The translations under genes and the position numbers were made by a program. Source: Nitrososphaerota archaeon (GTDB lineage: Archaea; Thermoproteota; EX4484-205; JAAOZP01). From it: a DNA stretch of 64,000 bases. The notes beneath the pieces were generated by a model. That model made no database searches. It saw nothing but the letters and a program-made list of their open reading frames with translations, and was not told where the DNA came from. The stretch spans positions 75,228 to 139,227 of the forward strand of contig JAAOZP010000009.1 in the NCBI GenBank assembly GCA_011605725.1, in the 5' to 3' direction. Below are positions 55,875 through 61,826 of the stretch, one piece after another (within the stretch, counting starts at the first letter, position 1; each line of letters begins with the position of its first letter).

Positions 55875-56167
55875 CTACTGCGTCGAATATGAATGGCGGG
55901 ACAATATTTAAGCGTTTTTAAAGAATTTGGAGAATACGCGGGCCATAAAGTAGGCAGGCATCCCTAACGCTTGTTATCACGGCTCGAGTTATGTTCAACC
56001 CAAATTACACTTAAACATAACGGGAGCGGTTAATCTGTAAACATGGTAGCGCGAGCTAGAAACTTAATTTTAAGCAGCATACTTTCCCACCGATTTTTCT
56101 ACCAGATTTAATAGCGTTCCACTGCGGTTTATTGTGTGCACTAACCAAGCGTCCTGCAAGCAGAAAC

Positions 56168-57057: not shown

Positions 57058-57068
57058 TAGCGCGCGCT
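57058..57068 (+). repeat. Junction motif, copy 5 (TAGCGCGCGCT)
   Basis: Left border of the elp3 5' copy. Confidence 0.9.
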
Positions 57069-57071
57069 CGG

Positions 57072-57216
57072 TTTATGAGTAGCTTGCATACTAATTACTT
57101 CCAGTATAGCCTTTTTCTGCTGATACCGCAAATTTGGTAAGCCGTGTAGTTTCCTAAGAGTAAGTGCTGGGATCAGAAAGCCCCAGAACTATTAAGACCG
57201 GGGATTACTGGGCTGC
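57072..57216 (+). repeat. Decayed direct copy of the elp3 promoter plus first codons (parent 58584-58730)
   Basis: Shared exact words in order: TTTATG, TTGCATACTA, GCAAATTT, GTAGTTTCCTAAGAGT, ATTACTGGGCTGC; offset 1508-1514 bp. Confidence 0.9.
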
Positions 57217-57222
57217 GCGCTA
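57215..57222 (-). repeat. Junction motif, copy 6 (TAGCGCGC on minus strand)
   Basis: Right border of the elp3 5' copy. Confidence 0.9.
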
Positions 57223-57255
57223 TGCAAATTTTGCGTTACTTCTTATTTCTCCGTG

Positions 57256-57678
57256 TTAAATATCTTTTATTCTTCTAATGTGCTTCAAGCAGTCTTCCTT
57301 CAATCTTTCTACGAGTTTCTCGTCTGCCGTATACATGTAACTATTTTTCATGATCGCTAGGGAAATATAGGAGGCGTCATAAATTGTTATATTGTTTTTG
57401 AACGCAACCTCTATAGTTTTTTCAGCATATTTGCCTCTGAGGGGGTATAAATCTAAAAAATATGCGTCTAAGGCTTCTGAAACTTCTTTTATCTCGCTTT
57501 CTGAAAAGAGTTTTTTATAATACAACGCATTTAAAACTTCGAAGTTAATGATTTCAGGGGCTATAAGTTTTAATTCTCCTTCTATATACTTATCCCTAAT
57601 CGTCACGGCTTTATCGGAATTCTCTTCTTCAACGAACCACTTCACCACTACGCTTGCATCAACTACTGCTACCGACAT
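57256..57678 (-). CDS. vapC: PIN-domain toxin VapC
   Basis: MSVAVVDASVVVKWFVEEENSDKAV...NNITIYDASYISLAIMKNSYMYTADEKLVERL. Confidence 0.9.
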   Translation of the reverse strand: MSVAVVDASVVVKWFVEEENSDKAVTIRDKYIEGELKLIAPEIINFEVLNALYYKKLFSESEIKEVSEALDAYFLDLYPLRGKYAEKTIEVAFKNNITIYDASYISLAIMKNSYMYTADEKLVERLKEDCLKHIRRIKDI

Positions 57679-57901
57679 GCCGTTCTTCCCTGAACTTTCG
57701 TATGATCTCTTCAGCCCTAGCTTCACCTCTGCTTTTCTTTCTTATTTTTTCGTTTATTAGAACTGCTTTCGCCAAGTTTTTTCTTTTTTCCTCTTCCACC
57801 TTCATTCTTATCGCATTTCTGATGAAATCACTCCAATTAACTTTAATCTCTTTCATCATCTTCTTGGTTTCTTCATCTACCCTTATCGTAATTACTGTCA
57901 T
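57659..57901 (-). CDS. vapB: VapB antitoxin
   Basis: MTVITIRVDEETKKMMKEIKVNWSDFIRNAIRMKVEEEKRKNLAKAV. Confidence 0.88.
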   Translation of the reverse strand: MTVITIRVDEETKKMMKEIKVNWSDFIRNAIRMKVEEEKRKNLAKAVLINEKIRKKSRGEARAEEIIRKFREERHVGSSS

Positions 57902-57966
57902 ACAAGTATTACATGTATAATTTACATATAAACTTTGCTTTTTAGACCTATTCCTGCCAAGAAAGC

Positions 57967-57977
57967 TAGCGCGCGCT
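57967..57977 (+). repeat. Junction motif, copy 7 (TAGCGCGCGCT)
   Basis: Left border of the TnpB remnant. Confidence 0.9.
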
Positions 57978-58336
57978 TTCTCCACAAGCTATCAAGGTTC
58001 TACGTGAACAACTATGATGTGATTTGTGTTGAAAACTTGGCCATAAGCAACATGGTTAGAAACCACATCTTAGCCCAGAAGATACTTGATGCCTCTTGGG
58101 GAAAGTTCCTTCAACTGCTCGAATACAAGGCTGAAAGCGCCGGTGTTCGGGTGGTGAAGGTGAACCCGAGAGGCACATCTAAAGGATTAAGATCTCTTGA
58201 GACTGGATATCGGCAAATAGAATATTGATGAGGGGATGGGGGCGGCCCTGATCCGCCTGCCGGGATGAAGCCCTTACTGGTAGAAATACCAGCAAGCCTC
58301 ATCGTTGAAGCAGGAAGCCAACACCCCTTCTGGTGA
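57967..58336 (+). pseudogene. IS200/IS605-family TnpB (OrfB) 3' remnant
   Basis: RFLHKLSRFYVNNYDVICVENLAISNMVRNHILAQKILDASWGKFLQLLEYKAESAGVRVVKVNPRGTSKG; then frameshifted GGGPDPPAGMKPLLVEIPASLIVEAGSQHPFW*. Confidence 0.88.
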
Positions 58337-58348
58337 GGGTAGCTCACC
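58332..58348. repeat. Hairpin GGTGAG-GGTAG-CTCACC at TnpB remnant 3' end (IS605-like right-end hairpin)
   Basis: 6-bp perfect stem, 5-nt loop, overlapping the remnant's stop codon. Confidence 0.6.
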
Positions 58349-58540
58349 GTGACTCCGAAAACAATAAGGGAATCCGTGAAACTCGTTTTCAAATATCACT
58401 TGTATATGGCTGACGCTATTCAAATAATCTCTGCCAAACAGGCGAATGCGCGTAATCTCGTAACGGGGGATAGGAGGCTTGCCGAGGTATCTATGGTCGA
58501 GGGTTTGAAAAACGCTGTGCTTAGCCTAAACCCGCCCTGA
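58349..58540 (+). pseudogene. C-terminal fragment of PIN-domain protein
   Basis: VKLVFKYHLYMADAIQIISAKQANARNLVTGDRRLAEVS; lacks the N-terminal DxN motif. Confidence 0.7.
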
Positions 58541-58686
58541 AGTGGTTCGGAAGATGGTTAAAACGTGGATTCACAGGTTTCAATTTATGTGCAGTTGCAT
58601 ACTATTTTCCCTCGAGACCTTTCCTGCCCGTTACTGCAAATTTAATAAGTAAGGTAGTTTCCTAAGAGTGAAGCACCGGAATTAGA

Positions 58687-60285
58687 ATGAAGCCCGAGGA
58701 GACTGTTAAGACTGAGAATTACTGGGCTGCCTGCAGAGAAATAGCTGGGATCCTTGCCTCGGAGAAGCATGCTGACAGGAGGGTTGTCCACAGGGTTAAA
58801 CTCAGGGTTTCCTCAAGATTCAGGCTTCCCATGGTTCCCTCTAACAGCGATATTCTTGCAAGTGCCCCGGAGAGGCTTAGGGATAGGCTTAGAAGCATTC
58901 TGATGGTTAAGCCTTCTAGAAGCTCATCCGGGGTCGTGGTTGTTGCAGCGATGGCCATGCCCATGCCCTGTCCCCATGGGAGGTGCTTCTACTGCCCGGG
59001 AGGCCCCTCCAGGAATACTCCTCAGAGCTACACCGGCCTTGAGCCGGCTGCGATGAGGGCTATTCAGAACGATTATGATCCTTTCAAACAGGTTTCCCAG
59101 AGGATTAGGCAGCTTGAGGCTGCTGGGCATGTTGTTCAGAAGGCTGAGCTGATAATAATGGGTGGAACTTTTCCGGCAGCACCTTTAGATTATCAGAAAA
59201 CATTTGTCAAAGGATGTTTCGACGCCCTGAACGGTTTTGTCTCCCAGTCTTTGGAGGAGGCTCATAGGCTTAACGAGTCGTCAAGCATCAGATGCGTAGG
59301 CTTAACTGTTGAGACTAGGCCAGACTATTGCAGAGAGGATCATGTCGATAAAATGCTTAGCATGGGTGTCACTAGAGTTGAGATAGGTGTGCAAACTCTT
59401 AGAGACGATGTTCTTGAAAGAGTTGAGAGGGGACATAGGGTTGGGGATACTGTTAACGCTTTCAGGATTGCTAAGGACGCTGGCTTGAAAATAGTTGCGC
59501 ATATGATGCCCGGGTTACCGGGTATGAGTGTTGAAGACTCTCTGGAAGATTTTAGGAAACTCTACTTCGACGAGAGGTTTAGGCCGGACATGATAAAGAT
59601 ATACCCTACTCTCGTAGTCGAGGGAACAAAGCTTTACGAAGCCTGGATGAGGGGCGATTACAAGCCCCTGGAGGATGAGGAGGCTGCCGAGCTTGTCGCA
59701 AGGATACTGGAGATAACTCCGCCATGGGTGAGGATTATGAGAGTCCAGAGGGATATTCCTGCGAACGCGATTGCAGCAGGGGTTAGGAAAAGCAATCTTA
59801 GAGAAATAGCGCATAGAATTCTCGAATCCCGTGGCTCTAAATGTAGGTGCGTAAGGTGTAGGGAAGTAGGCTTTTCAAAATCTAGAGTCAGCCTGGAGAA
59901 CATTCGTCTCGTCGTTAGGAAATACGGGGCTTCCGGCGGGGTTGAGTACTTTCTGAGCTTTGAAGACTTGGAGAACGATGTCCTGCTCGCATACCTGAGG
60001 CTCAGGAAGCCTTCCCCGTATGCTCACCGGAGAGAGGTAAACGAGGCTTCTTCAATGATAGTGAGAGAACTAAAGGCGCTTGGAAGAGCAATACCCTTAG
60101 GTACTAGAGTAAAAGAGTCTTGGCAGCACAGGGGCTTGGGAGCAATGCTGATGGAGGAGGCTGAAAAAATCGCTGTCGAAAACGGTGCTGAGAAAATACT
60201 CGTGATCTCGGCAGTAGGCGTGAGGGAATACTACAGGAGGCTTGGCTACTTTTTCGACGGCACATACATGGTTAAGAATCTCTAA
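58687..60285 (+). CDS. elp3: Elp3-like radical SAM tRNA uridine acetyltransferase
   Basis: PCPHGRCFYCPGGPSRNTPQSYTGLEPAAMRAIQNDYDPF; C-terminal GNAT HRGLGAMLMEEAEKIA. Confidence 0.96.
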   Translation: MKPEETVKTENYWAACREIAGILASEKHADRRVVHRVKLRVSSRFRLPMVPSNSDILASAPERLRDRLRSILMVKPSRSSSGVVVVAAMAMPMPCPHGRCFYCPGGPSRNTPQSYTGLEPAAMRAIQNDYDPFKQVSQRIRQLEAAGHVVQKAELIIMGGTFPAAPLDYQKTFVKGCFDALNGFVSQSLEEAHRLNESSSIRCVGLTVETRPDYCREDHVDKMLSMGVTRVEIGVQTLRDDVLERVERGHRVGDTVNAFRIAKDAGLKIVAHMMPGLPGMSVEDSLEDFRKLYFDERFRPDMIKIYPTLVVEGTKLYEAWMRGDYKPLEDEEAAELVARILEITPPWVRIMRVQRDIPANAIAAGVRKSNLREIAHRILESRGSKCRCVRCREVGFSKSRVSLENIRLVVRKYGASGGVEYFLSFEDLENDVLLAYLRLRKPSPYAHRREVNEASSMIVRELKALGRAIPLGTRVKESWQHRGLGAMLMEEAEKIAVENGAEKILVISAVGVREYYRRLGYFFDGTYMVKNL

Positions 60286-61052: not shown

Positions 61053-61826
61053 ATGAGCAAGGGCAGGGTCCTAGTCAAAGGCCCAAGGGTGCAGAATATT
61101 GGCTACAGGCTCTTCCTATTAAACCTGGCGGGCGAATCGAACTTAACAGGCTTCCAGGCTAGGAACATCGGTACCGATTGCGTCGAAGTGTTGTACGAGG
61201 GTGGTGATCAGGAGATTAGGGAATTTGTGGAGAAGGTTAAAGAATCCTCGCCTAAGGAGGCTGAAGTTTCCAGCATCGAGTTTAAAGAATACGATGGCCC
61301 CGTAAAAAGGATAGAGGTATTTCGAAGCGAGTTCACGACAATGCAGCTTGGGAAGATCGTTGAAATAGGCTTAGAGATGATCGGTAAGCAAGATAATTCG
61401 CTCAGTAAGCAGGACTCGATGCTTGATAAACAGGATAAAATGCTTGAAAAGCAGGATAGGATGCTTGAAAAACAGGACTTGATGCTTGGTAAACAGGATG
61501 GAATGTTAGGAAAGCTAGATCAGATGCTGGAAAAGCAAGACTTGATGCTTGAGAAGCAAGACTTAATGATCGAGAAGCAAGACTTGATGCTTGAGAAACA
61601 GGATGCGGTGCTGCAGAGACAGGATCAGATGCTTGAGAAGCAGGATAAGATGCTTGAGAAACAAGATACGATGATCGAAAAAATAGATGGACTTGGAGCG
61701 AAAGTGGATAACTTGGGCGTGAAAATCGATGGTCTTAGAGAAGACTTGAAATCTATGCTTGATAGACGGTTAACAACGCTGGAGAGAGACGTGGCTCTAA
61801 TAAAGAATAGACTGGGGATCGCCTGA
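61053..61826 (+). CDS. Acylphosphatase domain fused to KQDxMLE heptad coiled coil
   Basis: GRVLVKGPRVQNIGYRLFLLNLAGESNLTGFQARNIGTDCVEVLYEG; then (KQDxMLE)n about 16 copies. Confidence 0.85.
   Translation: MSKGRVLVKGPRVQNIGYRLFLLNLAGESNLTGFQARNIGTDCVEVLYEGGDQEIREFVEKVKESSPKEAEVSSIEFKEYDGPVKRIEVFRSEFTTMQLGKIVEIGLEMIGKQDNSLSKQDSMLDKQDKMLEKQDRMLEKQDLMLGKQDGMLGKLDQMLEKQDLMLEKQDLMIEKQDLMLEKQDAVLQRQDQMLEKQDKMLEKQDTMIEKIDGLGAKVDNLGVKIDGLREDLKSMLDRRLTTLERDVALIKNRLGIA

Follow-up and report, generated by a model that had tools for sequence, protein, structure and literature searches.

Yeast mitochondrial GC clusters are short GC-rich palindromes that lie mostly between genes, merge and shuffle, and have been proposed to be recombination hotspots (PMC4478555). 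They are the closest in behaviour to the 12-bp palindrome TA(GC)4TA (the motif) reported here from an uncultured hot-spring archaeon of the Brockarchaeota. As in mobile GC clusters, the motif was a GC-rich palindrome, mainly intergenic, with a copy number that varied between close relatives. However, the mitochondrial clusters are longer (e.g. 42 nt), with looped hairpins and short flanking direct repeats (PMC4478555), whereas the motif has 12 bp, showed no target duplication at the sites examined and lies in an archaeal chromosome, where it borders genes, gene fragments and toxin-antitoxin operons. Integron cassettes, including those of archaeal integrons (PMC9668308), likewise form small units, each a single gene or toxin-antitoxin operon between copies of a recombination-like site. 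In the archaeon, by contrast, no conserved position was found beyond the 12-mer at 83 motif sites and thus no attC-like site, the cassettes were dispersed and stood in both orientations, many of the blocks were mere fragments, and the genome (a MAG, 93% complete) contained a single tyrosine recombinase gene, which looked ordinary.

Two other systems share some of these properties. HIP1 of cyanobacteria is likewise an over-represented, GC-rich palindrome of one lineage, with one-base deviations concentrated at its ends (PMC4390886). The motif differs from it in having few copies, which are mostly outside ORFs and at which homology stops. HIP1 is far denser and located in homologous coding DNA. 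In the variable regions of Sulfolobus islandicus, degenerate IS copies stand on either side of vapBC modules (PMC3718332); here too a VapBC pair was found in an unstable mosaic archaeal region with IS remnants, but its flanks were a palindrome without an element body. Within the literature searched, no description of the motif in Brockarchaeota and no paper with the 12-mer were found.

The mosaic island upstream of elp3

The window, the 64-kb stretch of DNA that was analysed, came from contig C19 of the archaeal MAG (G000). An earlier note had described the region upstream of elp3 as a mosaic in which three motif copies separated an elp3 5′ copy, a VapBC pair and a TnpB remnant, the last being followed by a hairpin and a PIN fragment. 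The motif 12-mer is TAGCGCGCGCTA and its core is AGCGCGCGCT. The features of the island were as follows.

56047-56058, no strand: decayed motif copy TAGCGCGAGCTA, 1 mismatch; the 83%-identical homology of G003 stops at 56047
57058-57069, no strand: motif copy TAGCGCGCGCTC with exact core; elp3-duplicate homology begins at 57072
57072-57216, + strand: degenerate second copy of the promoter, leader and opening codons of elp3, without the start codon; matches 58584-58730 at 73% identity, E ~1e-12
57215-57222, no strand: half motif GCGCGCTA, fused to elp3-like GGGCTGC, the end of the elp3 duplicate
57256-57675, - strand: predicted VapC-type PIN toxin, 139 aa; Pfam PIN E 3.7e-8, solved PIN relative PAE0151 E 1.5e-6
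57659-57901, - strand: VapB-type antitoxin; NF050799 E 6e-11, DUF6290 E 0.0013
57967-57977, no strand: motif copy TAGCGCGCGCT, exact match
57977-58228, + strand: C-terminal remnant of an IS200/IS605-type TnpB, cut at the motif; NF040570 E 1e-22, positions 273-347; TnpB structures from residue ~260
58229-58347, + strand: structured stretch 3′ of tnpB, probable right end of the element
58348-58528, + strand: C-terminal remnant of an older VapC; 70-73% nucleotide identity to the intact form of G004, G005 and G006, PIN E 0.0028
58687-60285, + strand: intact elp3, 532 aa; Radical_SAM, ELP3_N and GNAT domains, 78-83% identity within the genus

The elp3 5′ copy, the VapBC pair, the TnpB remnant and the PIN fragment were all confirmed, and the partition by motif copies held in part. 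The motif scan of the window located TAGCGCGCGCT exactly at 57058-57068 and 57967-57977, but the copy at 57215 was only a half motif. The left end of the elp3 duplicate lay a few bases past the first motif and its right end inside the half motif. Two borders therefore fell on the motif within a few bases, namely the end of this duplicate and the start of TnpB at the third copy, whereas no motif was present at the border between TnpB and the PIN fragment (58347/58348). The decayed copy at 56047-56058, additional to the three described before, was the left border of a block with a DUF1294 gene and rps30e. Within the 64 kb of the window by itself, a count allowing up to two mismatches gave 17 motifs against 12.35 expected, which was not significant. 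A 257-aa ORF at 61053-61826 contained many tandem EKQD-type heptad repeats and probably encodes a coiled coil.

As read from the sequence, 57256-57901 is an intact type II VapBC pair, in which a PIN toxin with its acidic residues adjoins a small antitoxin gene. The four acidic PIN positions were found in VVDAS, NFEVL, IYDAS and YTADE of the toxin, the two genes overlapped by 17 bp, and the antitoxin scored 42.8 bits against the VapB family NF050799, under the curated cutoff of 60. No DNA homologue of the VapBC block was found in the genus genomes. That such a pair could select against loss of the region, as had been proposed, is plausible from the known behaviour of VapBC, but toxin-antitoxin cargo is not required, because many motif-bounded blocks elsewhere hold ordinary genes. 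Specificity of the motif for toxin-antitoxin modules was considered and rejected: several PIN genes lay near or between copies, yet ordinary genes were also motif-bounded, and no specificity is claimed since both the motif and these modules concentrate in variable islands.

Homology to TnpB, both to the NCBIfam family guided_TnpB and to solved structures, began at residue 14-15 of the frame (codons 57974-57979), coinciding with the last base of the third motif, and the N-terminal ~260 residues were absent. In the translation, TnpB with its RuvC and TNB regions can be recognized by its C-terminal part only, which identifies it as a remnant and not a working element. No DNA homologue of the TnpB block was found in the genus genomes, and the viral contigs searched contained one distant TnpB. 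The hairpin described behind it (58229-58347) did fold, at -50 kcal/mol, but the fold was not significant against shuffles (z -1.5), and no Rfam family matched this stretch. The border at 58347/58348 resembles an IS200/IS605-type right end lying inside the older vapC; because the hairpin was not significant and no Rfam family matched, this reading is drawn from the position between tnpB and vapC homology.

Comparison with the sister species was carried out at the species level, using the elp3 locus from six (L047-L052) of the seven same-genus genomes besides G000; all genomes compared were MAGs. An intact antitoxin-PIN pair directly preceded elp3 in G004, G005 and G006 and a damaged version in G003, so that the pair was intact in three of four sister species, and the PIN fragment of the window is the end of this older toxin. 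No motif copies were found in G001 and G007, yet the rps30e-elp3 interval was rearranged there and contained an arabinofuranosidase-like gene. The motif is thus not required for variation of the locus. Other relics of the elp3 5′ end were present in G005 and in G007, where the relic was upstream of rps30e. Because these comparable relics sit at different places, the idea that the elp3 5′ copy was the attachment-site remnant of an elp3-integrating element was dropped. The motif-free G007 also had, at L047 2850-2950 and upstream of a complete rps30e, a relic in which a 5′ part of rps30e was fused to the final portion of the older vapC. A motif with one mismatch, TAGCGTGCGCT, lay in G006 between the older vapC and the TATA box of elp3 (L048 ~1877-1887).

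Distribution of the motif and homology at its copies

The core occurred 88 times genome-wide in G000, compared with 2 for the reversed control, and the 12-mer 28 times. Across the eight genomes of the genus the core counts were 88, 32, 18, 6, 3, 0, 0 and 0 and the 12-mer counts 28, 14, 9, 1, 1, 0, 0 and 0, showing that the motif was common in only a few species. A survey of the phylum found no 12-mer in 378 of 390 other genomes and mostly one or two in the remainder. One genome of another family (G205, f28) had 12 copies of TAGCGCGCGCTA against 4 of the control, and may represent a second motif lineage or may simply be GC-rich. In G000, 64 of the 84 examined sites (76%) were outside ORFs, though ~84% of the examined bases were inside ORFs. 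The forms (GC)3, (GC)4 and (GC)5 all occurred, together with one-sided and one-mismatch forms, and decayed copies were common; the mismatches were mostly at the outer base or were CpG transitions, and shuffled control palindromes were nearly absent. Direct repeats of 2-6 bp flanked the motif sites examined at chance level, and no shared sequence or element body was found beside full or half motifs.

The 84 motif sites were compared with ~0.5 Mb from G000 itself and 1 Mb from its relatives, sampled around motif sites and control positions. None of the 84 copies was crossed by a homology block at the DNA level in G000, where an informative homologue on a side was available at only ~10-15 sites. 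Homology covered 12-16 sites at distances of 40-200 bp, 8-9 sites at 20 bp and 1 site at the centre, thus falling off within ~15-40 bp of the motif. Among the 64 intergenic copies, 0 were crossed, against 11.6 ± 2.9 (minimum 2 in 2000 draws) for positions drawn at random from the intergenic DNA of these loci, ~1/5 of which were crossed by homology blocks; these figures derive from a crude ORF caller, non-independent BLAST blocks and partial sequence of the relatives. Fragments compared at the protein level crossed 0 of 84 motif sites versus 7-14 of 84. Blocks abutted the motif at 11 of the 64 intergenic copies, with 3.0 expected (P < 0.0005). The same was seen when G004 was analysed with its own copies, half motifs included: 0 of 29 intergenic copies were crossed (7.5 expected) and 8 of 29 were abutted (2.0 expected). 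Exact copies were uncrossed in both G000 and G004, unlike a site of the HIP1 type, which is kept within homologous DNA. These results establish statistically that TA(GC)4TA is a rearrangement-junction sequence in G000 and in the sister species G004. Of 63 indels between species, the majority lay away from motifs, so joining at the motif is only one source of variation. The species-level comparison of MAGs revealed no case, within one species, in which an empty site with one motif could be set against its cassette-bearing, two-motif counterpart.

Blocks between motif copies

Some of the motif-to-motif blocks duplicated other sequence of the genome, as at L134 7766-7826, where 61 of 61 bases were aligned with 95% identity. 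Other blocks were single genes, encoding a NERD nuclease, an oxidoreductase, HIT and Rieske proteins and AAA ATPases, and whole toxin-antitoxin operons of the VapBC, HicAB and ParE types were also motif-bounded. A motif joined two distinct gene fragments at L223 1425. Relative to its intact form in G000, a PIN gene of G005 was broken by an insert of ~700 bp, in which a 206-aa ORF lay; TTGCGCGCGCAA stood on both sides of the insert, and ~100 bp of the PIN gene were lost.

Several further sequences were noticed. At L205 765 (contig C12 of G000), a motif directly followed a tRNA-like 3′ end, GGTTCAAGTCCCTTCCCAGCGCTCCA, and a fragment of a recombinase-like ATPase gene started on the other side. 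The motif-bounded block at L201 8137-8211 was the 3′ half of a tRNA gene. Repeats of ~80-190 bp at L132 7862-7960, 10780-10968 and 1585-1662 (contig C4 of G000) occurred at many places in all genomes of the genus.

Formation of the junctions

Joining by recombination at the palindrome is the preferred reading of the junctions, with a probability of roughly 0.6; the enzyme and the reaction are postulated. Pieces that end in the motif would recombine with resident copies in a reaction that uses the palindrome either as a short homology or as a specific site, each insertion or deletion would leave a motif copy at the joint, and the copies would later decay by mutation. No enzyme linkable to the motif was found among the G000 genes examined. 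The proposal of the earlier note that insertions and deletions used a common short site was well supported both genome-wide and in a sister species, although it does not account for the variation of the interval in the motif-free G001 and G007. In the elp3 island, the likeliest course of events starts with an IS200/IS605-type element bearing tnpB, which would have entered the older vapC upstream of elp3, as suggested by the abrupt border between the tnpB-hairpin stretch and vapC. A deletion up to a motif would then have taken the older antitoxin together with the first parts of tnpB and of that vapC; the border of motif and tnpB was observed directly, and the order of events is inferred. Finally, the VapBC pair, which is absent in the sister genomes, and the local elp3 5′ duplicate would have been joined at motif copies, where their borders were found. 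It is possible, though doubtful, that this amounts to a cassette exchange of the Brockarchaeota, in which genes and toxin-antitoxin operons move between the 12-bp palindromes by a further enzyme, with an outcome like that of integrons but another site and other machinery.

The main rival to recombination at the palindrome takes the motif as the product and not the director of rearrangement: end joining of double-strand breaks would add or expose TA(GC)nTA, with short local filler trapped in between. The intact counterparts of truncated blocks had no motif at the break point, short copies of other sequence lay between neighbouring motifs, and the variation in GC units and the one-sided forms are also consistent with such a scar. 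However, a fixed sequence of 12 bp would be unusually specific for end joining, the whole genes and operons between copies go beyond filler, and the G005 insert had an identical palindrome at both ends, which makes the scar an unlikely explanation. The motif could alternatively derive from a MITE-like or IS insertion element, as its end or as a footprint that remained after excision or adjacent deletion. The TnpB remnant abutted one motif copy, adjacent deletions made by IS elements stop exactly at the element, and the TA at both motif ends is reminiscent of TA-target elements. The half motifs without a body, the lack of target duplication and the lack of flank conservation at the 83 sites led to the rejection of a MITE or IS footprint, and an insertion-element origin is considered improbable.

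A site that is selected or maintained by methylation, as a HIP1-like or protein-binding sequence, might be merely enriched in the breakpoint-rich intergenic DNA of variable islands. The palindromic, GC-rich and over-represented motif, with three quarters of its sites outside ORFs, resembles such a site, and, as has been described for HIP1 (PMC4390886), its deviations were concentrated at the outer base. Matched intergenic positions of the same loci were nevertheless crossed by homology and rarely abutted, and the steep drop of homology beside the motif and the many decayed copies also argue against selection, leaving this explanation quite improbable. Misjoining of contigs at the palindrome, as an artefact of assembly or library, might be suspected because all of the genomes were MAGs and one sequence stood at many joints. 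G003 and G005 had an orthologous intergenic copy in common that differed by one GC unit (L181 4994 and L182 11096), which argues against an assembly artefact, as do the decay of copies by mutation, the preference for DNA outside ORFs and the high motif number in only some species of one genus. An artefact is hardly credible.

The presence of the palindrome at the exact joints of shuffled DNA suggests a way of gene reshuffling in these cells that is not described in the literature searched. With such a 12-bp sequence, the build-up of toxin-antitoxin modules and mosaic islands in uncultured archaea becomes directly accessible to study. As a recombination site, it would represent a cassette mechanism unlike that of integrons; as a repair scar, it would be the record of an unusual break-repair pathway.
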